From Mya arenaria (lineage: Eukaryota > Mollusca > Bivalvia > Myida > Myidae), in the NCBI RefSeq assembly GCF_026914265.1, contig NC_069123.1, positions 48,430,949-48,494,948 on the forward strand: 64,000 nucleotides of DNA, written 5' to 3'. The notes under the pieces were generated by a model. The model saw only the letters and a list, made by a program, of their open reading frames with translations, searched no databases and was not told the origin of the DNA. Position 1 is the stretch's first letter. Each line of letters opens with the position of its first letter. Positions 27,401 to 54,972 of the stretch are shown here, in pieces. Both the position numbers and the translations under genes were made by a program.

Positions 27401-30400
27401 ATTATAAATTTAAATTATTGAAAAAAAACATATACCGACCAGTACTGAAGGAGAACGCCACTTCGTTTGGGATCCCCCTGTCACCGTCAATGGCGCGGCA
27501 AGTGAAGAAATGCTTTCCCTATGAGACGAAAACATGCCATATATCAGTAAGAATGAAGCAGCTGCAACAAATAGCCGTTTGCTAGGTTAACCATACATAT
27601 TTCCTTTCCCACGGTTGATCAATGTTTTTTAATGAACGAAACGGTAGAACATGCACATAACGGTTTGTCATACTGTAGCCCCTTAGCGTTAGCTTTAACA
27701 ATGATGCTTGTATGAAAAAACTTTTGAGAGGAAGAGTACTTACCAGCGGTGAGTTTTCCTGCACGGTAACTACATATGGCGTCCCCTGTACTTCCGGTGG
27801 AGTGTCTTGAATGTCCAGTATCCGGATGGTCAATACTTCTGACGAGTTCAGCCCGTAACCGTCCTACAATTTACAGTAAAGTTAAACTATTGACAGCTTG
27901 TCATTAAATAATAAAGGTGGTCGTGATTATCATGACTATTATATTTATCTGGTTATACGCTGACTGGTCGCCATTTACACGGGAACGTTATCAGTGCTCG
28001 AGGAAGAGCCTTGGACTATTTTATTAAACTAAAGCATTTGATAAAATATTACTACATCACTATTTAGATACTTATGAACTCTATCTGTATAATGTAACTT
28101 TATGCAATTACCACTGCGATTATTTTGAACTGGTAGAACTGCATCTTCTCATAGTCCAGCGGAGCCTTCAGGAAGATTGACGCTGTTTTGGGATCCATGG
28201 AGAACGTGTTGGTGAATACGACCGCATCTTTGTCGGACTGCAGAACATTTCAAATGCTAGATAAATTTTTGTGTTATATTATATTATGACGACTTGATAA
28301 ATGATATATAAAAGCATTATGCATGTGATCGTTAATATATATTAAATAATAAATTAACTAATATATACCATTATTATTATTATTATTTATTTGTTTGTTT
28401 GTTTGTTTGTTTGTTTATTTATTTATTTATTTGAACACTTACCTGTGTAATTGGCTGAAATACAGATAAAAACAGTTTTAAAACACGTCAAATTTGAGGA
28501 TGATAATGTAGAAATAATTTAGAACAAGCAGGTGGGTTAATTGCTTTACTCTAAAATATTGAGTCCTGAAGGTCTACTAGAGGGGGTGCTTTTTCATGTA
28601 ATTTTCAACAAATAATATTCCTGATGTCTTATATTTTAACTACGATTCGGACAGCTGTGTGAAGTTAGCTAAACATACAACATTGGACATTGGACATTCA
28701 AAATCGAATGTTGTGCTGGCACGACATTGGACATTGGACATTCAAAATCGAATGTTGTGCTGGCACGACATTGGACATTGGACATTCAAAAGTGAAAGTC
28801 GTGCTAGCACGACATTGGACATTGGACATTCAAAATCGAATGTTGTGCTGGCACGACATTGGACATTGGACATTCAAAAGTGAAAGTCGTGCAAGCACGA
28901 CATTGGACATTGGACATTCAAAATCGAATGTTGTGCTGGCACGACATTGGACATTGGACATTCAAAATCGAATGTTGTGCTGGCACGACATTGGACATTG
29001 GACATTCAAAATCGAATGTTGTGCTGGCACAACATTGGACATTGGACATTCAAAAGTGAAAGTCGTGCAAGCACGACATTGGACATTCAAAATCGAATGT
29101 TGTGCTGGCACGACATTGGACATTCAAAATCGAATGTTGTGCTAGCACGACATTGGACATTGGACATTCAAAATCGAATGTTGTGCTGGCACGACATTGG
29201 ACATTGGACATTCAAAATCGAATGTTGTGCTGGCACGACATTGGACATTCAAAATCGAATGTTGTGCTGGCACGACATTGGACATTGGACATTCAAAATC
29301 GAATGTTGTGCTGGCACGACATTGGACATTGGACATTCAAAATCGAATGTTGTGCTGGCACGACATTGAACATTGGACATTCAAAATCGAATGTTGTGCT
29401 GGCACGACATTGGACATTCAAAATCGAATGTTGTGCTGGCACGACATTGGACATTGGACATTCAAAAGTGAAAGTCGTGCTAGCACGACATTGGACATTG
29501 GACATTCAAAATCGAATGTTGTGCTGGCACGACATTGGACATTGGACATTCAAAAGTGAAAGTCGTGCTAGCACGACATTGGACATTGGACATTCATAAT
29601 CGAATGTTGTGCTGGCACGACATTGGACATTGGACATTCAAAAGTGAAAGTCGTGCTGGCACGACATTGGACATTGGACATTCAAAAATGAAAGTCGTGT
29701 ATCAACTTGCAGGAGTCACGATGCACAGAGAGACGCACTATTGTGTAGTACTTCAGTACTGCAGTACTCTCTGTGCATCGTGACTCCTGCAAGTTGATAC
29801 ACGACTTTCACTTTTGAATGTCCAATGTCCAATGTCGTGCCAGCACAACATTCGATTTTGAATGTCCAATGTCGTGCTAGCACGACTTTCACTTTTGAAT
29901 GTCCAATGTCGTGCTAGCACGACTTTCACTTTTGAATGTCCAATGTCGTGCCAGCACAACATTCGATTTTGAATGTCCAATGTCCAATGTCGTGTCAACA
30001 CAACATTCGATTTTGAATGTCAAATGTCGTGCTAGCACGACTTTCACTTTTGAATGTCCAATGTCCAATGTCGTGCCAGCACAACATTCGATTTTGAATG
30101 TCCAATGTCGTGCTAGCACGACTTTCACTTTTGAATGTCCAATGTCCAATGTCGTGCCAGCACAACATTCGATTTTGAATGTCCAATGTCGTGCTAGCAC
30201 GACTTTCACTTTTGAATGTCCAATGTCCAATGTCGTGCCAGCACAACATTCGGTTTTGAATGTCCAATGTCCAATGTCGTGCCAGCACGACTTTCACTTT
30301 TGAATGTCCAATGTCCAATGTCGTGCCAGCAGAACATTCACTTTTGAATGTCCAATGTCCAATGTCGTGCCAGCACAACATTCGATTATGAATGTCCAAT

Positions 30401-33400
30401 GTCCAATGTCGTGCTAGCACGACTTTCACTTTTGAATGTCCAATGTCCAATGTCGTGCCAGCACAACATTCGATTTTGAATGTCCAATGTCCAATGTCGT
30501 ATGTTTAGCTAACTTCACACAGCTGATTCGGACTTCACTAGCAACTACCTGCATGGAGTAAGCGAGCTTGCCCCCGATGCCGGTGTCCGGGTCCCGGGCC
30601 TGAATGGACTCGTAAACCACTTGGTTCCACGCCTCGTTCTGGGAGGAAAATGGAGTTATACGCTTCATTACCATAAAATTAATGTTCACAGGATTTGGAA
30701 GATGTGAAAAATTACATGGAAATAATGTTATGTTAATAATCGATATAGTTAAAATGCCTGTATTTGTGTTTTAACACGACAATCACGGTTGCTCTGTTCC
30801 TTATCAATTATATCTCCGACACGGTTGTTGGTATAACTTACCTCTGGTATCTGCAGCCTGTATGGGAGGTTCTGGAAGACGGGGACCTCGTCGTTTACGT
30901 CCGAGATCACCAGGTCCACCAACACGTCGATCTGAAACACGCACGGACGGATGGACAAACGGGTCAGTCAGTGTTAGACAACGTCATGTGAATAGAGACG
31001 TTTGTAATTTAAAATTATTTTTATGTATGCCATAGGATGAAATTTGCAAATGGTTCATTCGTAAACGAAGCACCTTTATTTATTTCCAATTCAATTCGCT
31101 TATCAATTTAATCTCGTATTACTGGTAATATTTTGCTAAAAAACAGCCGTAAAAGGAAATAAATATAACGAATACATGTATGATCGTTAAAGTAATCAGA
31201 GAGAGCCGGAAGGTGGGTTACCTTGAAATTGAGTTCACTGTTGTCTTGGATGATGAAGTGGAGCTGCCTCCGGTCAGAGTTCTAGGGAAAAGAAACACAC
31301 AGAGGATATACAGGGAAATCAATCATGATTCGTTGGTTTATGGCCAAGCATGTATGAATACTATCAATGCTCAAATAATAAGCGATAAAAGAAAGGGCAT
31401 GTTATTCCTCTATGAAATTCGTCCATGATGCAGTTTACCAAACTCCATTTGTCCGCTCTCTAACTCATAAACGCATTTGTTATTTAATATTTAGCAAATA
31501 TTCGTTACAATATTTATGAACATAACTTCTTGAAGGAGTTTGATCAACAGCAAAATCGCATATTAACATTGGAGTTCTGGCCCTTGCTTAATCAAAATTT
31601 AACCAAATTCTATTTGTTTGCTCTTGGGCATTTTCTATCCAATCTTTGCCCGACTAGGTTGCAATGCATATAAAGGGCATGATATCTCGACCAAGTATGG
31701 TAAACAGCCAGATCATTCTATGAGTAACGGCCCTTTATTTGTCAGCTCCCTGTGGCTGCTTTTTAACTTAAGCATTTCTAATTCAATTTGAGGCAAGTTT
31801 AGTTATAATAGTTATGGACATGATATCGCGTATATGTTCAATAAACAGCAATAGCGCATTATTATTAGTTATTGAGTTATGTCCATTGGATGGCGAAAAG
31901 TTGGCCAATACACCTTGTATTTTCCTTAATCAATAATTTCTTAGTCAATCTTAATAGCATTGTTTATACTTGGTAGATATGTTATAGCGCATGTCCGAGT
32001 GACCTGCAAGACTGCAATATTTACTTTGGAGTTAATGGCCTTCAATTTTGCAAACGTGTATGCTCATTTATGTCTACATATATAACAGTATATGCCTGAA
32101 TATAATTCATCAATTTCAACAGAGAAACATAAAATACGTATATCAGTCCTACTTTTAATAAATAATTGTTTTATCGTTTTCCATTTCAAAAAGTGGGCTC
32201 TCAAAGCAAGCGACATATTCAAATCGCCTTATCCTAGTTATACGTACATAATCCCGGTCAAGAATCTTATCAAGAATAATATCAGCTGAAGCGTTCCCAT
32301 TGGTTCGGATGGTCTGACGTATAGTCACGAGTGTCTTGGACTCTGCCTCGTATTCAGGGTAACCGATGATGACGTCATCACCGTCCTCATCCATTGCCTT
32401 TAACGTCCAAAGCACGGTTCCTGCAAATGTTACCACAGCATTATAAAAGTAGCGTTTACAAGAACTGTCATTGGGAGACCTGGAACATTGCTGTATACGG
32501 TGTAGATGTCAGAGATAGCCCTACAGTGAACGTCAGTGATAACTGAGCTAACATTGCTGTATACGGTGTAGATGTCAGAGATAGTCCTACAGTGAACGTC
32601 AGTGATAACTGAGCTAACATTGCTGTATATGGTGTAGATTTCAGAGATAGCCCTACAGTGAACGTCAGTGATAACTGAGCTAACATTGCTGTATACGGTG
32701 TAGATGTCAGAGATAGCCCTACAGTGAACGTCAGTGATAACTGAGCTAACATTGCTGTATACGGTGTAGATGTCAGAGATAGCCCTACAGTGAACGTCAG
32801 TGACAGCTGAGCTAACATTGCTGTATACGGTGCAGGTGTCAGAGATATCCCTACAGTGAACGTGAGTGATAACTGAGCTAGCATTGCCGTATACGGTGTA
32901 GATGTCAGAGATAGCCTTACAGTGAACGTCAGTGATAACTGAGCTAACATTGCCGTGTACGGTGTAGATGTCAGAGATAGCCCTACAGTAAACGTGAGTG
33001 ATAACTGAGCTAACATTGCAGTATACAGTGATACGGTGTAGATGTCAGAGATAGCCTTACAGTGAACGTCAGTGATAACTGAGCTAACATTGCAGTATAC
33101 GATGTAGGTGTCAGAGATAGCCCTACAGTGAACGTCAGTGATAACTGAGCTAACATTGCAGTATACGGTTTAGGTGTCAGATATAGCCCTACAGTGAACG
33201 TCAGTGATAACTGAGCTAACATTGCAGTATACGATGTAGATGTCAGAGATAGCCCTACGGTGAACGTCAGTGATAACTGAGCTAACATTGCTGTATACGG
33301 TGTATGTGTCAGAGATAGCCCTACGGTGAACGTCAGTGATAACTGAGCTAACATTGCTGTATACGGTGTAGATGTCAGAGATAGACTTACAGTGAACGTC

Positions 33401-36400
33401 AGTGATAACTGAGCTTACATTGCTGTATACGGTGTAGATGTCAGAGATAGCCCTACAGTGAACGTCAGTGATGACTGAGCTAACATTGCAGCATACGGTG
33501 TAAATGTCAGAGATAGCCGTACAGTGAACGTCAGTAATAACTGAGCCAACATTGCAGTATACGGTGTAGATGTCAGAGATAGCCGTACAGTGAACGTCAG
33601 TGATAACTGAGCTAACATTGCAGTATACGGTGTAGATGTCAGAGATAGACTTACAGTGAACGTTAGTGATAACTGAGCTTACATTGCTGTATACGGTGTA
33701 GATGTCAGTGATAGCCCTACAGTGAACGTCAGTGATGACTGAGCTAACATTGCTGTATACGATGTAGATGTCAGAGATAGCCCTACAGTGAACGTCAGTG
33801 ATGACTGAGCTAACATTGCAGTATACGGTGTAGATGTCAGAGATAGCCCTACAGTGAACTAGCCCTACAGTGAACGTCAGTGATGACTGAGCTAACATTG
33901 CTGTATACGGTGTAGATGTCAGAGATAGCCCTACAGTGAACGTCAGTGATGACTGAGCTAACATTGCAGTATACGGTGTAGATGTCAGAGATAGCCCTAC
34001 AGTGAACGTTAGTGATAACGGTAGGTGTCAGCTATAGCCTTACAGTGAACGTCAGTGATAGCTGAGCTAACATTGCAGTATACGGTGTAGATGTCAGAGA
34101 TAGACTTACAGTGAACGTTAGTGATAACTGAGCTTACATTGCTGTATACGGTGTAGATGTCAGAGATAGCCCTACAGTGAACGTCAGTGATAACTGAGCT
34201 AACATTGAAGTATACGGTGTAGGTGTCAGAGATGGCCTTGCAGTGAACGTTAGTGATAACTGAGCTAACATTGAAGTATACGGTGTAGTTGTCAGAGATA
34301 GCCTTACAGTGAGCGTCAGTGATAACTGAGCTAACATTGAAGTATACGGTGTAGGTGTCAGAGACGGCCTTACAGTGAACGTCAGTGATAACTGAGCTAA
34401 CATTGCAGTATACGGTGTAGGTGTCAGAGATGGCCTTACAGTGAACGTTAGTGATTACTGAGCGAACATTGAAGTATACGGTGTAGGTGTCAGAGATAGC
34501 CTTACAGTGAACGTCAATGATAACTAAGCTAACATTGCCGTATACGGTATAGATGTCAGAGATGGCCTTACAGTGAACGTTAGTGATAACTGAGCTAACA
34601 TTGCAGTATACGATGTAGTTTTCAGAGATGGCCTTACAGTGAAAGTTAGTGACAGCTGAACTAACATTGCAGTATACGATGTAGGTGTCAGAGATAGCCC
34701 TACAGTGAACGTCAGTGATAACTGAGCTAACATTGCAGTATACGGTATAGATGTCAGATATAGCCCTACAGTGAACGTCAGTGATAACTGAGCTAACATT
34801 GAAGTATACGGTGTAGATGTCAGAGATGGCCTTACAGTGAACGTCAGTGATAACTGAGCTAACATTGAAGTATACGGTGTAGGTGTCAGAGATGGCCTTA
34901 CAGTGAACGTCAGTGATAACTGAGCTAACATTGAAGTATACGGTGTAGGTGTCAGAGATGGCCTTACAGTGAACGTCAGTGATAACTGAGCTAACATTGC
35001 AGTATACGGTGTAGATGTCAGAGATGGCCTTACAGTGAACGTTAGGGATAGCTGAGCTAACATTGAAGTATACGGTGTAGGTGTTGGAGATAGCCTTACA
35101 CGGAACGTAATTTAAGTGATAACTGAGCTAACATTTCATGTAACATGTAGTATATACCCGAACAAGCCTTACAGTGAACGTTAGAACTGTTTTGTTAAAT
35201 TACATGGAGCGAATCAGATTTGATCAATTGAATTTACTCGTTCCCAAAATTCTCATTGCGCACATTTACCTTTTACACTAATATATCTTAGCCGTGAAGA
35301 AATATGTGTGTCTATTGCCAAATTCAAACAATGGCGATAGCAACAGAACTCTTATTGACGAACGCGTACCTATCTTGGTGTCCTCGCTGACGACGACAGC
35401 GGCGTCCGTGTTGTCGACGATCACCGGAGGATGTGGCTCACTTTCGCACTCACGGACTGCAATTAGACGGATGTCTGTTTTACAAATATAGACTTAAATT
35501 TTCTTTTTTTACATGGTCTTCATTAAGAAACCTTGCAATACCATATCAGATTAAACTAAGGTCATACCAAATTGTTTTTTATGTTTAGCGTCAACTCTAA
35601 GTATCTATCTAGCTATCCTAAAAAAACTTACCGCCGAAAAAGAAACGATTACTAAATGAGTGATATCCTATGTATAATATATACACATGCTGTTTATTTT
35701 TAGTCCATATTGAACCATTTTCAATTATTAAATAAATGTGTTGATAATGTGTGGCAACCACACAGAATGCATCGTATTCTGATATCAATTGCCAAGTATG
35801 CTAGTACATAGTGGTATGAAACATGTTGTTTGCACGTGTGTTCAGGCCCCAATTTCTCGAAACTTCTTAAGCTTAACAGACTTAAGTCGCTTATTTCAAT
35901 TAGCCAAAATACATACTGAAAATGTTTATTAGTAAATGAAAAATGGTTTATTCTGATAATCATACAGATTATTCCTACATAATTTCTAAAAATTCTTGAA
36001 GAAGTAAATAGAACACATTTTATAGAATTATAAAAATAGTGTGATTAGCTTAATCCTGTTATAAGGGACTTAAGAAGTTTCGAGAAATTGGGGCCTGTTG
36101 TCGGAATTATAGTAAAAGGAAATTAAACATATGCGGCAGATCGCTGATCATATAAAAAAACTTTTTTTATCGGGAAGCCCGTTTGCGGACGCTTGGCAAA
36201 GAAATGATTTGGTATGGCTCATGCGATTTATTTTTTAACTGTATTTTTTTTTCTTAAATAATACTCCATTTAAATAGCATTCATAACTTTAAAAGTCAAC
36301 CGTCATTTATAGCTGTCCACCAGTGAGCTGAACTGGTATAGTGTCAATTATTTTTATTTTTATCTAATTGAAAGGACATGTTGCTTTAATTAAATTGCTA

Positions 36401-42541: not shown

Positions 42542-45500
42542 TCATTTTCCGTAGTACATCTCACAAACTTTATCTATTTCCTTGCACCAGTCTACTGCTC
42601 GTTTTTGGGGTTCTTCTAGGTAGTATGTTCGATTTGGCTGAAACACGCAAAAACATGGCTTTGAATTATTTTTGTAGGCTTTTTTCACAATATCTCAAAG
42701 ACAATTTTTTATGTCATTGTTTAGTTCTCAATAATTGTTTATCTCCTTTTAATATTAAACAAGAAATGCCGCAATGTGACGAAACCTGTTTTCAATGATT
42801 GACAGAAGAACTTCAGCCTGTGTCTGTATTTTTATTTTTAGTAACAGTGACCTTGACCATAGAGACCCCAAACGCAATCCCATGAAAGGTTTCCTATAGA
42901 CCAAGTTTGGTCAAGAAATGTCAACCCTTACTGAAATTATTCAGTTTCATAGGTGAGTTTGACGCCGCCCTGACGCCCGCCCGCCCGGCCGGCCGCCCGC
43001 CTGAACAACGACATTCGTCATTCTAATAACCAGGTTTCACTTTGTGAAAACCTGGTTAATAAACTTTAAAACTTGTAAAACTTACTGTATGTACAAAAAA
43101 TATTTTAAAGTTCTTTTGCTCAGTTTTAAGATCCTTGGACCATGGAATCTGGCCCTTGAGAACCTTATTGGATGGATCTACATAGTAGAGATGGGGGCCT
43201 TCTGTTAGCAGAAACATTCGCCTTCGCGCAAACAAGCCCTGAAAAATTGAAGACAATAGTGCTAAGATGAAGTCACATTTGAATTTATGAAACACAGAAT
43301 TTAGATGGCCCTTGATCGCTCACCTGAGTAAATCTTTAATGGTGCTCTAGACATCTCTATAATTAAAGGGCACTAACTCACAGGTGACTATAGCAATTTG
43401 GGTGAAAGAATTTGATACAGGATCACTGAAGGAACATTTCTATAAATAATTTAAAATAAGGCCAGCAGATTCTGTCAGAGTAGATTTTCAAAGTTTTCAA
43501 CATAGGACACAAAAGCAGACAACCCTACGTATGCAATTGTAGACCCACCTACCAACACCATTGCAGACAAGCTTACAAACACGATTGTAGACCCAGTAAA
43601 CAACATGATTGCAGACCTGCCTATCAACACAATTGCAGACCAGCTTACAAACAGGATTTAGACCCAGTAAACAACTTGATTGCAGACCTGCCTACCATTA
43701 TGATTGCAGACCTGCTAACAAACACAATTGCAGACCAGCATACCAACAGTATTCCAAACCTGCCTACCAACACAAATGCTGACCTGCCTTAATAAAGCAT
43801 CAATGCAAACCCAATTACAACCATGATTGCAGGCCCTCCTACCAACACTATAATACACCCAGCTAAAAACACTATTGCATCCCCCCATCCCATAGAAACA
43901 TTGCAGACCTGCCTAAAAACATTATTGCTGACCAAATTACAACCATGACTGCAGAACAACCTACCAACATGATTACACACTCAACTAACAATATGATTGC
44001 AGACCCACATGATTACACACTCAACTAAGAATAGGATTGCAGACCCACCTAACAACATGATTACACACTCGACTTACAATATGATTGCAAACCCACCTAA
44101 CAACATGATTACACACGCGACTAACAATATGATTGCAAACCCACCTAACAACATGATTACACACGCGACTAACAATATGATTGCAGACCCACCTACGAAC
44201 ATGATTACACACTCAACTAAGAATAGGATTGCAAACCCACCTAACAACATGATTACACACTCCACTTACAATATGATTGCAGACCCACCTAACAACATGA
44301 TTACACACTCAACTAACAATATGATTGCAGACCCACCTACCCTCATGATTGCAGATCCACCTAACAACATGATTACACACTCGACTTACAATATGATTGC
44401 AGACCCACCTAACAACATGATTACACACTAGACTTACAATATGATTGCAGACCCACCTACCAACATGATTACACACTCAACTTACAATATGATTGCAGAC
44501 CCACCTACCCTCATGATTGCAGACCCACCTAACAACATGATTACACACTAGACTTACAATATGATTGCAGACCCACCTACCAACATGATTACACACTCGA
44601 CTTACAATATGATTGCAGACCCACCTAACAACATGATTACACACTAGACTTACAATATGATTGCAGACCCACCTACCAACATGATTACACACTCGACTTA
44701 CAATATGATTGCAGACCCACCTACCCTCATGATTGCAGACCCACCTAACAACATGATTACACACTCGACTTACAATATGATTGCAGACCCACCTACCCTC
44801 ATGATTGCAGACCCACCTAACAACATGATTACACACTCGACTTACAATATGATTGCAGACCCACCTAACAACATGATTACACACTCGACTTACAATATGA
44901 TTGCAGACCCACCTACCCTCATGATTACACACGCGACTAACAATATAAGTATATGTAGCTTCAATTACTTTGCGTTTATCAATAAGCCCTTGTTTCAGGA
45001 TGAGATGGCCCTCTGTAAATTTGTGATACTCGTTAGTTTGTGCCTGGTGCTCTAAACGCTCCTTCCTCTCTGCCTCTGTGATACTGAAAGATACAGGTCA
45101 TGAAAATTAATCTTTTATCACTAGAAATACAACCATTTTTATAACATGTTATGTAAGTTGTAACATTTCAGGACTGTTGAACATTTGATATCCTGCATAG
45201 AATTTTTTTTTCACCAATTTTTTTCAGAAAAACACCATTGCAGGAAAATGTTGGACTCCATCAGTTTTAATCATCATCGGCAACCACGGTATTTATTGCT
45301 AAACACTTTATTAATACCATGAGATAATTCACTGACAAAATCTCATTTAAATGAATGCATGAGACAGGTATGAAAACTCTTCTTCCAATGAATTTGCAGG
45401 TGACAATTAATTACTCTTCAATCAGCTGATTTTGGCAGCTGACTCCATAGGCCAGTGGTCTAGGCTGTTGATCAATTATTGTTGTGAAATGATGGACTGA

Positions 45501-48500
45501 TTTCAAATACATTACACCCAAACAATTGATTTCAATTATTTAATAGACATATGGGTAGTGAAAACAAATAATTATATTATTATAACTGTTTAAAAATATA
45601 AGATACTCAAATCCTTTTTAATACCATATCTACCGGTAATCTAATATTTTGTCAACTTTCGTCAAGAGGACCAAAATTGCAGGCTGCAGCTCATAATCAT
45701 ATTCTCTATAAGAGAACAAATCATTAAAGGGGTCAAGTCAACAATTACTTACAAGTGTGAGGTTAATATTTCACCAATTCTTTTGTCTGTAAGGCCAGGC
45801 TGAAACAAAACAATTTGAGTTTTAATATGCTGGACAACTTTTATATCAACAGCACCTACAGTGGATGCCATTACTTGTTGGCTGTTCTTTTTACTCCACT
45901 TGACCAAGAAGCTTAAAGCGTAAATTATTAAATGCAAAGTTACCCCTTTTCCTATGAATGTACATATTATCAGTGGTAAAATGTGTACCAATTATAATGG
46001 AAATACCTTTAACCTTTAACAACTTCTATTTTTGGCCAAGGTTTAAAATTTTGCATGTCAACCATAAAAACACAAACGACATGATATCCTGTCTTTTTTG
46101 TTTATACAATAATAATAGACAAACTAGAAATGGCTACATTATTATGAATTGATGATTGCAACTTATATATTTCATTTTAAAATGCAGTAAAGAGCCATAC
46201 GAATCAGTGTTTGAAATTCAAATGCTAATCTACTCACATAAACAAATCCCCCATCACCCACCTTCATAGTGCTCCAGCAGGACTCTGGGTTACTGGCGGT
46301 GGCAGGGAGGTACGGTACCAGCTCTGGGGGCTTGGATGTCTCAATATTGTCCCAGTCCACACCCTTAAAGAGCCCGTGCCCCTTCAGGTGCTCAAACCCA
46401 CCAGTCTCATCACTACCCAGCCGCTTGTCCGGTTCCAATACCTGCATATAGGGGTCACATATCACAGAACTGACAACATGGCTGGCTTAAAGACAAATGT
46501 CTTACATCAGGTACAGTGTACTTTTCATCGAATTCAGAACCGGCAAGGATTATTATTATAACAGTCATCATTAAGATATTTTGCAGAAGTTACAGGGTTT
46601 AAAATACCAATGCAATTAAGAATAGTATTAAGACTTACTAATAATTTTTCTACTAAATCTCGTGCAACAGGACTAAAGCCTTCTGGAAATTCATATTCTA
46701 ACTTTGTTATCTTTTGAAATATTTGGTACTCATGCCTGAAAAATAAAACAAAATCATTTCTTGTACATATAAAATATCTATAAGGTTAAATACAATTCAT
46801 TTTTCAAGTGCAGTTTTATGACTGCCATAACTTTGGTTTAATAAATGCATTATAAATTAGCCATAGAGTACAAATTACAACTGAGTATTCATAAAACTTA
46901 TAACTTACCCTCCCCTAAAGGGTGGTTCTCCAGACAAAAACTGGTAAAGTATACAGCCCAGAGCCCACAAGTCAGAACTGTATAACAAAATAAACAATGT
47001 GGCTGAAGTAAGTATGCGTGTATACTGCACTTACTTATTCATATTTAAAACTAGAAAGTATATACCAAATGCAAATTTTTTTTTACCATAACATTGACAA
47101 CTGAATTCTTGGGAAAAGAAAGATTTATCAAAAAGAGCGCCGAATAATAAATGCCAAAGCTAGCCTGCTGTTCATCAAGTCCTCGTTATCAATGTGCAAA
47201 CTGTCTCTGGCAACATGTGTACCAATGTTTAATCCTGTTGTTGAAGGTTTTTGAGCTATGGCCAAGGTAAACATAGGCTTTTAGCCCAATATAAAAAAAG
47301 TCAGGGTGCAGCAAAGGGACATGGTGCTAAGGGAGAATAGGGCACATAATGTGTCGGGCTTTGAAAAAATTGAACATTATGCATTTCATAGAAAACATCA
47401 GGAAATATGCTATATTGAAGTAATATAAGCCTGTAACTGCCAAATATGTCAATGTTCTATAATCCTAGCCTATATTAACAGCTGTGAAAAAAGTCATTGA
47501 CTAAAAAACTTTGTTTTGGTTTTGTATTTGTTCCATTTTTAAATGTTACTCTGTGTTTTGTAATCAAAGACAATTATGTTAATGTCAGAAATAATAGATT
47601 TTTGAAAATCTTTCAAATAATGTTGACTTAAGGAGACCAGTAACTGTTTTTTGGCAATACTCGATTATCACTTAATCCATAGTGCTAAGTATCCATAAAT
47701 AAACAACAATCAACATTTACATGTACTTGAGAGTAAACAGAAAAGAATCCACAAGCAATTAGCATCTTGAATCAAACATAAGTCAATCAATATATGAATG
47801 CTATATATATATAACCCAAAATAGCAAGTTTTTTAAACTGGTATTGACTTCATACTGAAAAGTTGTATAAACTTTTAGGAAATTCCTCCCTGCATGTGTT
47901 AAATAATTGAGGGAAACAACATGTTATCACACTGAAAAGTAGTAAGTAAACAGTCACCACTAGGAGATATTTGAGTCAATGGCATTCTGGATCTTATTCA
48001 ATACATAAAGCTGTGGGTCTTAGTACCTTTTACTGGCATGTTTACTGGTAAGCACTTCTGGGGACACATACTGGGCTGTACCAACAAAGGAGTTCTTCCG
48101 CTTGGGCTCATTTTCTTCTGAATAAAAACATCTGATTATTTCAAATAAATATTAAATATTACAGAATAAGTTATTTAATTACATAGTTGAAGAAGTACAT
48201 GATTTCATCATTGTATTTATTCACATTTAATCCCTTGAACAAGAGAAGAATCTACCTAACCCCTGTTGTGCGAGTATACAGATTGAAACAGATCTGTATA
48301 GTTTTCAAATCAAACTTTTCATAACTAATGTAAATTTACACTATCTTTAAAATTAACCTCAACAACTTTCAATTAAAATTCAATTGTTGGATAAGACAGA
48401 CAAGGACAGTGAATGTCCCATGTTGTTGTGACAAAATCAAGCAAACCTGCAAGGGAAATACTCACCATTCTGGGAATTGTCTGTGTTCCCTTTGATTATT

Positions 48501-51318
48501 TTAGCAGAACCAAAGTCTGTAATCTGAATGTGCATTTCATCATTTAGGAGAATGTTTTCTGGTTTTAAATCCCTGAAATGATAAAGCATTATTACTAATC
48601 ATCTTTTAAACAAAATGTTTACTTTCCTTGTTTAATAATAATATCTGTAAATATTTTTCTATCCGGAACGGACACACGATATATATTTTTTCTAGCATAC
48701 CTTTAATTACATTTTTTGTGAAGAAAATACATAAGAAAGCGCATTTTTGTACATTTCACCAAAAAGCGCGTGCGATGATGTTTACTGACGTCATGACGCG
48801 CAGTAATTTGTATTCACTGCATACATCAATAAGTTCCTTCGATATCACGTCTTTAAGGGGTTATTTTGTTTTGTTTTTAAGGAATATTTTTGTAAAGTTA
48901 ATGTTAATGGGACTCATCTATTGAAATCTCATAACTATGGTTACATTGAGTGTTTTATAAAAGAAATGCCTATCCAGTATGCTAGAATATAATGTATTTC
49001 ATTAAGGCATAGGTTATTGGACATTATAACTAAATGCCAAGTTCCTGGATGTGGTCAAAGATATACTCTTGATATTTAAGATTGAAAATGATATGTTCCA
49101 TATTTTTTTTGTTAAAGAATGATTGATTCAAATTATTAATAGTTGTTTCAAAAGTTATTAATATATTTTCTGCGTGATAAAATTTTTGCAAACTTCTGCC
49201 ATATGTCAATGCAATACATGATGTATTTGCTAAGATAATGGCTTGAAGGTGCTTACATGCAAAAACCTAAACCAAGGTTTTGACACCAGCGCCACTACTG
49301 ATGGACAAATGCATTCATAGATGGATAAAAGCAAACCCATGTGTCCCCCTCTTGCCTTAAAAATTCAGCGGTAAATGCTTGACCATATATGGTTCCAGGT
49401 CATACCTGCATGACCATATATGGTTCCAGGTCATACCTGTGTACAATGTTTACTCCATGGAGGTACTCGAGAGCCTTGACAATCTCTGCTGTGTAGTGAC
49501 GGGAGCAGTCTTCATCAAACGAGGACAGGCGGTGGAGGTAGTCCAATAATTCACCTCGACGAGCATAGTTCAACACAAAGTCTGACAAGTGTTAAAGACA
49601 TAATAAACTTATCATATTGTTTCACCATATATGGACTTACTTTCTTCAATGGAAGGAAAACATATCAACAGTGAGTGTTTCCAGGAACAAATGTAATTTG
49701 CAATAATTTAAACGCAATGCATAAAGTCATACCCTTATTGGTAGGAATTCTTATTAATGATACATGTACATTTTTTTTTTCTTATACAGAACATGTTTTG
49801 CCTTTAATTGCAGTAATAAACACTCCATGACTGTTTTTGCACTGGAGTTCATTGATTGACCTGCTTACTCATTTAAATAGTCAGAGCCTACATTTTGGCG
49901 TATTGGACATCCTTGATAGTAGTACCTTTAACTGATATAACACATTGAAAGGATACAGAGTCTGTCCACATCCTGGAAGGTGAAGTAAAGCCGTATGAAG
50001 AAAGGGTGGTTGAGCTTCATCAAGACCTCCTTCTCTCGCATCACATACTCTGTCTTGCGTTCACGCATTATGTGCTTCTTCTCCAATACTTTAACTGAAC
50101 ACAAAGTAAATCAACTTAACCTTTACTTTAACTTGAGCGTAACTGAATAATTGTAATTGTTTTTACACAACTGGTAGAAATTGTTACTCATTACCATTTG
50201 TTTATGAAGTGAACGCAAAATTCTTGAGGTGAATGAAGAGTAAAAATACAATAGAATTAAAAGCAATATTTGAAGTTTTAATTCCCTACATAAGTTAAGC
50301 GTTCACAGCCCATGTGGTGGATCAATACATGAACTTTCTGCAGTGCTGTGCTATGTGTACATTGCATGTACTTACTTGCAAATTCTGCTCCTGTACTGAT
50401 TTCTTTTGCAAGATAGACCTGTAAGGAAGGAAAACACAATACACAAGTTTTCATTGACAGTCATTATCATTTCAAAACCAATATCTAAGTTAAATGAAAA
50501 GAGGTCATTGGTCTTTCATGGAAAGGTATGTGTTGCCTGTCAGGAGCACCTATCATCGTAAAACTAAAAAAAACATGTTAAAGGAGCAAACTGTTTTGAA
50601 ATTTAGAACTTTGACTATTATAGCCAATAAGAAATACACCAACTGTATTTCAATGTAAAAGGGGCATAACTCGATCCAGATAATAAGAGCAAAACACATT
50701 ATGATTGAATGACAATACATGTAATTCAATCATTGTCTGCAAGTCTTTGGGTTGAAAAGTCTTGCTCCTGTCTGTACACTCAATATACAAACTATATTTT
50801 ACTATATACATATATGTTAAAAAAGGCATAACAGTGGTATTCTAATGATGAATCATCTGATAATTGAATCTTCGACTGAACATTATGCCCACCGTTTAGT
50901 TTTAGTCTGCACATGATCATACATCTACTATCTTTTTAAAGTAAAAGGGCATAACTATGGAATAACTTAGACATTTATCTCATAATTGAACTCCACCAAA
51001 CATTATGCTAAAACACTGAAACCAGGACTAAGTCTCATTCGAATTTAGATGATGAATAATTATGTTATTTTCAATAGGTATAGCTGAGAACAAAACTAAT
51101 GCCGAAATACCTTTATTACAACACTTGATGAGACACCAAAAGTGTTCATTTTAAACTGCTTAAAAAGGTTTTCATGATATTTTTAATAATAGAAAGTGTA
51201 TTACTGTAGCAAATGATCCTTCACCAATAACTTTTCCAAACACAAAATCATTTGGAGTTTTCTTCTGTGGCTTGTCATTCTGTTCACCTGGTGAATCACC
51301 AACAGAACTTGAGCTCAT
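42542..51318 (-). CDS. PDPK1: 3-phosphoinositide-dependent protein kinase 1 (13 coding exons, 472 aa)
   Basis: Coding exons on the minus strand: 51318-51205, 50418-50376, 50094-49957, 49581-49437, 48572-48466, 48117-48027, 46977-46909, 46735-46639, 46441-46238, 45799-45753, 45083-44969, 43238-43086, 42637-42542. Phases agree throughout. PDK1 phosphorylates the activation loops of AKT, S6K, SGK and PKC at membranes holding PIP3. Visible: glycine loop GEGSFAT (32-38), catalytic Lys in EFAIKVLEKKH (about 54), HRDLKPEN (146-153), DFG (166-168), the autophosphorylation loop [13 protein letters not shown] (Ser about 192), and a PH domain with KRKGLFARRR and [20 protein letters not shown]. The linker between kinase and PH domains is shorter than in human PDPK1 (556 aa). 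The exon with the ATG starts at an acceptor at 51333, so a noncoding leader exon lies upstream; a longer N terminus cannot be excluded. Confidence 0.93.
42826..43065. repeat. Dispersed repeat with GC-rich core and terminal hairpin
   Basis: It opens 'tttttagtaacagtgacctt', has a CG-rich core ('cgcccgcccgcccggccgg' at about 42974-42992) and ends with a hairpin AACCAGGTTT ... AAACCTGGTT (43028-43057). Its opening resembles the units of the 56505-58050 repeat. It lies 20 bp from a PDPK1 donor. Confidence 0.6.
43510..44945. repeat. Minisatellite in PDPK1 intron, 45-bp higher-order unit
   Basis: A unit of about 22-23 bp ('aacatgattgcagacccacc') has diverged into two types: 'attgcagacccacct' and 'attacacactcgactt'. 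Together these form a 45-bp unit repeated at 43970-44945, sometimes with an added 'accctcatgattgcag' half-unit. The stretch 43510-43970 is an older, more diverged version. Since 45 is a multiple of three, long frames stay open on both strands and are not genes. Confidence 0.88.
49401..49437 (-). repeat. 31-bp tandem duplication across a PDPK1 donor site
   Basis: The true donor after 'AACATTGTACACAG' (exon end 49437) is followed by 'GTATGACCTGGAACCATATA' and 'TGGTCATGCAG', after which GTATGACC and its continuation repeat. A second AG|GTATGA donor thus lies 31 nt downstream. Using it would insert [12 protein letters not shown] in the middle of the HRD catalytic motif and shift the frame. Confidence 0.7.
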
Positions 51319-52179
51319 TGTGTCTCGATACCTCTGTAAAATATAATACCACATCATGACACTAATGTTTTTAAAATTAAATTGACTGTACAAAGATTTT
51401 GTCAAATTTGGTGTTTGTAAATATTTGTGGGCCAATGTCAATCGAGGAATTACCCTATTTACTGCAGCTCCATATTATGTCGCTCTGCCCTCTACGCATG
51501 CTTGAATTAACTATGATTGGTGCAGTTTTTTGGAGCCAGTTGAAGCGAACACCATGACAAATTTGAAATAGATGTGTAATAAGCTATCAAATCGTAATGT
51601 CATCTATTCAGTACACAATTAAATTATTTTTCTGTAAAAAATATTCAAATACAAATATTTCATTTATGTTTCTTGATTTTACATGGTCTTATAATATACA
51701 ACCAATCAAACGAATTCAGTACCAAAATGTGAATTTTTTTGTAAATCATTTTGAACAAAAAACTTAACGAGGTCATCCCAGTTAAGTTTTGTACGATGCA
51801 AACATACCTAGGTTATTGTAAAAACCTAAATATCAACATTTTGTTGATACTAAAACAAAGTAGTATTATCATTTTTCAATCCATTTTATTTGCTTTTTTG
51901 AAATATTCACAAAGCTGTGATATTTTAGCATCTCCTGAAACTCATGTAATGAAACTAATGCCTGGACAGTTGAACTTTCGCGCCAAATAAATATGACTAC
52001 ACAAAGTGGGGAGCTAGTGGGTCAACTAAGTTCTAACACCAAATAAGTTAGAGCTCATTTTCTCGATCTACAGAAAATGGTACAAGCTTTTGGCCTACGC
52101 CCTCGCTGCGCTCGCTCCATTTTCTGTAAATCGCCAAAATGAACTCTTACATATACTAACAGTTTCATTGGCTATTTAC

Positions 52180-53203: not shown

Positions 53204-54375
53204 CATACATGTGATAACGTCCCGGACGTCCGGGATTGTCCCGGAAATCGTATCTCTGTCACGGAGTCACGGAGGGTGCATGTTTGTCCCGGAAAGTCAT
53301 AAAAAAAAAAAACGAAAAAAAAAATCTCGGAATCGGAATCGATTATCTTAATTTTACCATTGTAAGTCAGCTATTTTGCCTGTCCGGGACACTGGTCGTA
53401 AAACACAGGACATGTTGACACTAATCCGTTAATTGGTACGTGTGTCGTCGAGGTCATCGTCAATCACCCGATAATTGATCTATCGGCCTATTGTTGTGCT
53501 TAACGAGTGGGGGAGGGTTCTTGTATACTAATTCATTGTTTTCATATGGATTTGTTTGGTCTTATGAATGATAGCTTTTAATTGATGAATTGATGTTTTT
53601 CACACATTTTACCAACAAACGAGCATGAAGGTAAGTTCAAAGAAAGTGACAAAATGAGTAAAAAAAACAAAATTAAAACACGGAAAACAAGGAATTTTAG
53701 TGTTTTGACCGTTTCCGAACTATCGTGTGTATTTTTACGTATTTTTACGCCGAAATAAAACTGACGATATGGGGTTTACAGACGGTTATATAGAGTGCTT
53801 TAATCACGTGACCATGGTAAGTCACGTGATCGCTTTATACAGCTGATTGTTGACACGTCTCTATCAAAATTATATGCATCTCCAAACGGAAAAAAGCTCA
53901 TCGACTGAAAAATCTTCTTTATCGTCTGGAAAATATTGTGTGTCATTAATTGCAAACGTTTTAAATGTGATGAAAAAATAAATATTTCGTAACGCATGTT
54001 CTCAAAAGCGCGGGAAAACAGGTGCCCGTATAGTTGTTTATATCCTGTTTTGATGAAACCGAAAGTAGACTGCATATCCTCCTGGTTAGCACTTCATTTA
54101 AAGCCTGGGAAAATATCTGGTGGTTTTATTTTTTCAAGAAAATGCAGAAAAAAAAACAACCATGTCAGGTAAAAAATACGTCTTGACAGTCAAAATAGGT
54201 ACATTTTCCCGACGTTAAAAACGACTAAAATAGCCCCAGATATGCTATGGAATGCACCACAGACGTTCCCCATTTAAAAAAAATTCCGGGGGGGGCATGC
54301 CCCCGAACCCCCCTAGTGTGCGTTGACATAACGACGAGTGTCCCGGAATCGACCCAAGAAATTATCACATGTATG
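53204..54375. mobile_element. hAT-like nonautonomous transposon with 8-bp duplication (1172 bp)
   Basis: A perfect 8-bp direct repeat TATAATAC lies at 53196-53203 and 54376-54383. The ends are a perfect 14-bp inverted repeat CATACATGTGATAA. Subterminal parts carry 'cccgga' motifs at both ends (for example 'cgtcccggacgtccggg' and 'gtgtcccggaatcg'). No transposase frame is present. The 8-bp duplication fits hAT; the ends lack the commonest CAG start, so the superfamily is provisional. Confidence 0.8.
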
Positions 54376-54721: not shown

Positions 54722-54972
54722 CACCAATTTCTCGAAACTTCTTAAGTCCCTTATAACAGGATAAAGCTGAGCACACTATTTTTGTCTTGCAATAATTAGC
54801 TTAATATTTACTTCTTAAAGAGCTGTTATGCTTTAGATAGAAATTATCATTATGCTAACTACAATAAATCATTTTTCATTAATCAAAATCCAATTTAAGT
54901 ATGTATTTTGGCTAATTGAAATAAGCTACTTAAGCCTGTTAAGCTTAAGAAGTTTCTAGAAATTGGGGCTTG
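54722..54972. mobile_element. Inverted-repeat miniature element, family B copy 2
   Basis: It begins 'accaatttctcgaaacttct' and ends 'agaagtttctagaaattggg', nearly the inverse. The interior ('cccttataacaggataa' and 'gtattttggctaattgaaat') is the reverse complement of the copy at 35843-36097. Confidence 0.75.

Follow-up and report, generated by a model that had tools for sequence, protein, structure and literature searches.

A well-preserved foldback-type element beside a splice donor in a cadherin intron of Mya arenaria

We analyzed a stretch of 64,000 nucleotides of Mya arenaria contig NC_069123.1 (the window, with all coordinates counted from its first base). A cadherin gene lies on its minus strand, and one intron of this gene carries a repeat-rich element at 28653-30524 (1872 bp), the only one of its kind in the window. 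The features of the locus are as follows.

28238-30548, minus strand: host cadherin intron, 2311 bp (donor CAG/GTAGTT at 30548, acceptor CTGCAG/ at 28238)
28644-28652, no strand: left target-site duplication GATTCGGAC, exactly 9 bp, same as 30525-30533
28653-28678, plus strand: left terminal inverted repeat tip, 26 bp, every base matching 30499-30524 in inverted orientation
28680-29699, plus strand: left arm, 23 full units (19 of 44 bp, 4 of 37 bp) and a partial innermost unit (29664-29699)
29700-29732, plus strand: left inner unique domain, 33 bp, within a 44-bp perfect inner palindrome arm (29689-29732)
29733-29766, no strand: loop, 34 nt, with AGTACT repeats
29767-29799, minus strand: right inner unique domain, 33 bp, perfect inverted match to the left domain
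29800-30498, minus strand: right arm, inverted relative to the left arm, a partial innermost unit (29800-29835) and 16 full units (10 of 44 bp, 6 of 37 bp)
30499-30524, minus strand: right terminal inverted repeat tip, 26 bp, perfect inverted match to the left tip
30525-30533, no strand: right target-site duplication GATTCGGAC, same as 28644-28652

The original prediction had placed the element in a cadherin intron, and the gene model bears this out. With GT..AG intron borders and exon joins chosen by eye, the joined exon peptide matched the Pfam Cadherin family (E = 9.3e-13, residues 11-87) across the junction of the element-bearing intron, and the joined exon peptides matched cadherin and protocadherin chains (112 distinct sequences at E ≤ 0.001; the best among the 60 of 112 listed was 8vy2_A, CELSR1, at E = 1.7e-41). 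The element makes up most of the intron, which measures 430 bp when the element and one duplication are subtracted, and it starts 24 nucleotides beyond the splice donor (15 nucleotides and then the duplication). Near exons of this cadherin there is also an array of 66-bp units (32484-35135; about 40 copies, 89% match), through which long minus-strand open frames run because its period equals 22 codons; no inverted repeats of at least 10 bp were found across this array within 400 bp of its ends.

Several other features of the window are recorded here in their own right. A short inverted-repeat element with ends (CAGGCC)CCAATTTCTCGAAACTTCTTAAG occurs in two copies, one at 35843-36097 (255 bp, with 29-bp perfect ends) and one at 54724-54966 (243 bp, in which the same end motif carries a mismatch); the pair looks like a MITE family. 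An AT-rich segment of 1172 bp (53204-54375) is spanned by a 14-bp inverted repeat, CATACATGTGATAA, flanked by an 8-bp direct repeat, TATAATAC, and may represent either a chance arrangement or a transposon with an 8-bp duplication. Units of 24/48 bp form an array at 43515-44946, where both strands carry open frames, and minus-strand open frames at 46175-51474 resemble, by eye, a PDK1-type protein kinase. Scanning the whole window for tRNAs and with Rfam (gathering thresholds) returned nothing.

The ends of the element are sharply defined. Perfect outer inverted ends and a perfect 9-bp target duplication had both been proposed, and both were recovered at exact coordinates: the tips are identical at 26 of 26 positions in inverted orientation, and both flanks read GATTCGGAC, with 9 bp being the only length from 1 to 19 at which the flanks matched. 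Apart from the two tips, the 26-mer was found nowhere in the 64 kb at up to 3 mismatches, nor in any of 100 shuffles, and no related sequence was detected elsewhere in the window by blastn (7-base words, E ≤ 10, no low-complexity filter). Two control scans addressed how often such an arrangement occurs in this DNA. The first searched all 64 kb for exact 10-bp inverted repeats lying 60 to 5000 bp apart and flanked by direct repeats of 8 to 10 bp; it gave 42 combinations, and among the 40 listed, one corresponded to the element tips and the other 39 were self-combinations of palindromic arm units. The second took exact inverted repeats of at least 13 bp, within 6 kb, outside the element: among the 33 listed, none had a 9-bp duplication and one had an 8-bp duplication. 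Exact searches with a 22-base tip against prokaryote genome contigs, and with the same tip and a 25-base monomer against viral contigs, gave zero matches, a result that is uninformative for an animal element.

Inward from each end, the order is the same: 26-bp tip, tandem-unit array, partial last unit, and 33-bp unique domain, with tips plus arrays measuring about 1.05 kb on the left and 0.73 kb on the right. The original prediction had tandem 44-bp arm units in unequal number and a small loop, and these were found (23 versus 16 full units; a loop of 34 nt); its 36-bp inner boundary was close in length, in that a unique inner inverted domain does exist but has 33 bp outside the repeat unit, within an innermost stretch of 44 bp that is perfectly inverted (29689-29732 and 29767-29810). 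The 37-bp unit is the 44-bp unit minus one 7-bp ATTGGAC step. Two main unit types, which by eye differ at five positions, end in TCGAATGTTGTGCTGGCACG and GTGAAAGTCGTGCTAGCACG, respectively; the latter type forms a 16-bp palindrome, GTCGTGCTAGCACGAC, that occurs 9 times in the element. In the right arm the two types alternate, to a degree reached by 130 of 10,000 shuffles (one ambiguous unit dropped); alternation in the left arm was not above that of shuffles (1605 of 10,000 reached it). The arms differ in unit number, in unit order, and in private substitutions. Left units 20 to 23 and right units 1 to 5 do have a common order and two private variants in common, a weak likeness in that 450 of 10,000 unit-order shuffles scored as high, and for this reason exchange between the arms is not claimed here as a result. 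Such exchange has been proposed for Galileo, and by analogy the inverted arms of the present element may likewise exchange sequence.

No gene could be recognized in the element. All 6 of its open frames of at least 120 amino acids are repeat derived, and the 5 of these scanned against Pfam (134 to 165 amino acids, in the arms) yielded no transposase, only short, scattered matches to unrelated families. Two matches exceeded their curated cutoffs: DUF1155 (29.8 versus 25 bits, best stretch 11 residues) and NuBaID_C (21.6 versus 20.2 bits, 23 residues). These and all other Pfam matches in the arms were read as artifacts of the repeated peptide. The view of an element without a coding loop thus stood, and the element is taken as nonautonomous.

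As RNA, the element is predicted to form a long hairpin. The predicted energy was -1428 kcal/mol, versus a mean of -542 kcal/mol (standard deviation, 8) for 12 dinucleotide shuffles, and 745 of the 841 predicted pairs link the two arms. The pre-mRNA hairpin expected at the outset stands as a prediction. Were it to form, the fold would put the intron ends nearly as near to each other as they were before the insertion, and the insertion may have been tolerated for that reason. The motifs AATAAA, ATTAAA, GTAAGT, GTGAGT, AGGTAAG, and CAGGTA were absent from both strands of the element.

The tip was also compared with those of known transposons. Drosophila FB elements have a 9-bp duplication, long tandem-repeat arms, and a variable loop. 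Against the FB4 tip AGCTCAAAGAAGCTGGGGTC (as printed in PMC9682801), the element tip matched at 8 of the first 12 bases (binomial P = 0.0028) and at 10 of 20 (P = 0.014), with the pattern AGCTnnnnGAAG in common; the tips of P, hobo, and roo from the same source matched at 4, 2, and 4 of 20. In the window, 406 of 127,978 12-mers (0.3%) matched the FB4 tip at 8 or more of 12 positions, and AGCTnnnnGAAG occurred in 5 places, two of them the element's own tips. The FB4 match was sought deliberately, with the three other tips as contrast, and is for that reason a lead only.

Long inverted arms of tandem units, a small loop, and a 9-bp target duplication are the features of the foldback structural class, and the insertion is real, well preserved, and ordinary in kind. 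We consider it probable that it is a nonautonomous cut-and-paste foldback (FB-type) transposon that entered the intron fairly recently and was moved in trans, most likely by a MULE transposase. The superfamily call is based on one duplication length and on the architecture: MULE duplications are 8 to 10 bp and often 9 bp, according to the literature, and the present one, from a single insertion, is exactly 9 bp. On this model, a transposase encoded elsewhere, most likely Mutator-like, would recognize the 26-bp tips and probably also the repeated arm units, which would offer it a series of secondary binding sites; it would excise the element and insert it with a 9-bp staggered cut. Arm length would then shift as whole units or 7-bp steps are gained or lost, and sequence swapping between the inverted arms would keep the tips and the inner domain the same even as unit number drifts. 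Within the pre-mRNA, the element would fold into its hairpin and be removed with the intron by splicing.

That the element is young, as originally suggested, is plausible. The perfect tips and duplication indicate a recent insertion, and the high CpG observed/expected ratio (0.96 in the element versus 0.67 in the window) fits little decay, though as a sign of age this ratio is weak because the unit sequence itself sets it. Inside the element, however, homogenization between the two arms can give an older copy a young appearance.

The same anatomy might instead belong to an element moved by the transposase of another superfamily (Galileo-like P, or a hAT/Merlin derivative), with convergence on the foldback form. 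Duplications are usually 7 to 8 bp for P, 8 bp for hAT, and 8 to 9 bp for Merlin, so the exact 9 bp seen here fits Mutator better, and the element tip is nearer to that of FB4 than to those of P or hobo. A single insertion does not fix the usual duplication length, however, and Galileo does have foldback-like arms within the P superfamily; we regard this reading as unlikely but as the most serious competitor to a MULE. It is very improbable that no transposon was involved and that a template switch during replication inverted a local tandem array (palindromic duplication). Other tandem arrays do lie nearby, such as the 66-bp array, and a hairpin could be obtained from inverted duplication alone, but a template switch leaves unexplained why perfect, nonrepeat 26-bp tips should be bordered by a direct repeat of exactly 9 bp; moreover, none of the 33 other inverted repeats listed carried a 9-bp duplication, and no related sequence occurs elsewhere in the window. 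Inverted arrays are hard to assemble, yet a tandem array mirrored by long-read misassembly is equally improbable, since the two arms are unlike in the number and order of their units as well as in private substitutions, and since mirroring would not create a direct 9-bp duplication.

The interest of the favored reading, a nonautonomous foldback transposon, is moderate and lies in the FB-like tip and in the nearness of a splice donor. Among the matches listed in the open-access literature, there was no report of this element or of any mollusc foldback element, and the bivalve repeat papers examined for foldback elements referred to them only through Tetris. Monomer strings had no match in paper texts; two 12-base tip strings did match 13 papers, none of them on transposons by title. 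A well-preserved foldback outside flies supplies exact tips with which an autonomous partner could be sought, and its position 24 nucleotides from a splice donor offers a natural test of whether splicing is affected by a long intronic hairpin.

Comparison with other foldback and MULE systems, as described in print, shows a common plan with differing parts. Tm1 of root-knot nematodes (Mutator/Foldback) likewise has composite terminal inverted repeats (TIRs), a variable number of tandem units, and duplications of 8 to 10 bp in 45 of 53 elements, mostly 9 bp; in contrast, its units are 13 to 15 bp (versus 44/37 bp here) and its 7-bp tips, CGGTTAA and CCTACCC, are asymmetric, unlike the perfect 26-bp pair of the present element. 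Muta1 and other Aedes MULEs (type2 Foldback) have a terminal motif followed by tandem subterminal units and an 8- to 9-bp duplication, and they include nonautonomous derivatives with variable numbers of subterminal repeats; the 145-bp TIR of Muta1 contains 9 copies of a 12-bp unit, whereas the corresponding lengths here are about 1.05 and 0.73 kb. Tetris of Drosophila virilis is a noncoding foldback with tandem units in its TIRs and a duplication of 8 to 10 bp, but its units are about 220 bp; its superfamily was left unfixed by its authors because it lacks a transposase. In Galileo F, the two TIRs of one copy can also have unequal unit numbers, but the units are about 210 bp and the transposase is of the P superfamily. 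The Galileo transposase domain binds the Galileo tandem repeats, and, per the Galileo paper, a like role for the repeats of Foldback and Phantom as binding sites was still to be tested.

With Drosophila FB, the original prediction had seen a likeness, which holds for architecture and for the 9-bp duplication; the tip adds a small clue, no more than a lead toward the FB family. Unlike FB, the element has no NOF-like gene, its units are 44/37 bp, and the likeness was judged from tip rather than arm sequence. Descent from the same ancient lineage as Drosophila FB, as the AGCTnnnnGAAG tips and 9-bp duplication might suggest, is doubtful; if true, the range of FB transposons and of their still uncertain transposase would reach well outside flies, and the autonomous partner might come to light in this host. 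In Drosophila, according to the Tetris and Galileo papers, chromosome inversions and newly arisen satellite DNA have been tied to foldback and foldback-like elements, and the monomer described here would mark any satellite derived from the present element.
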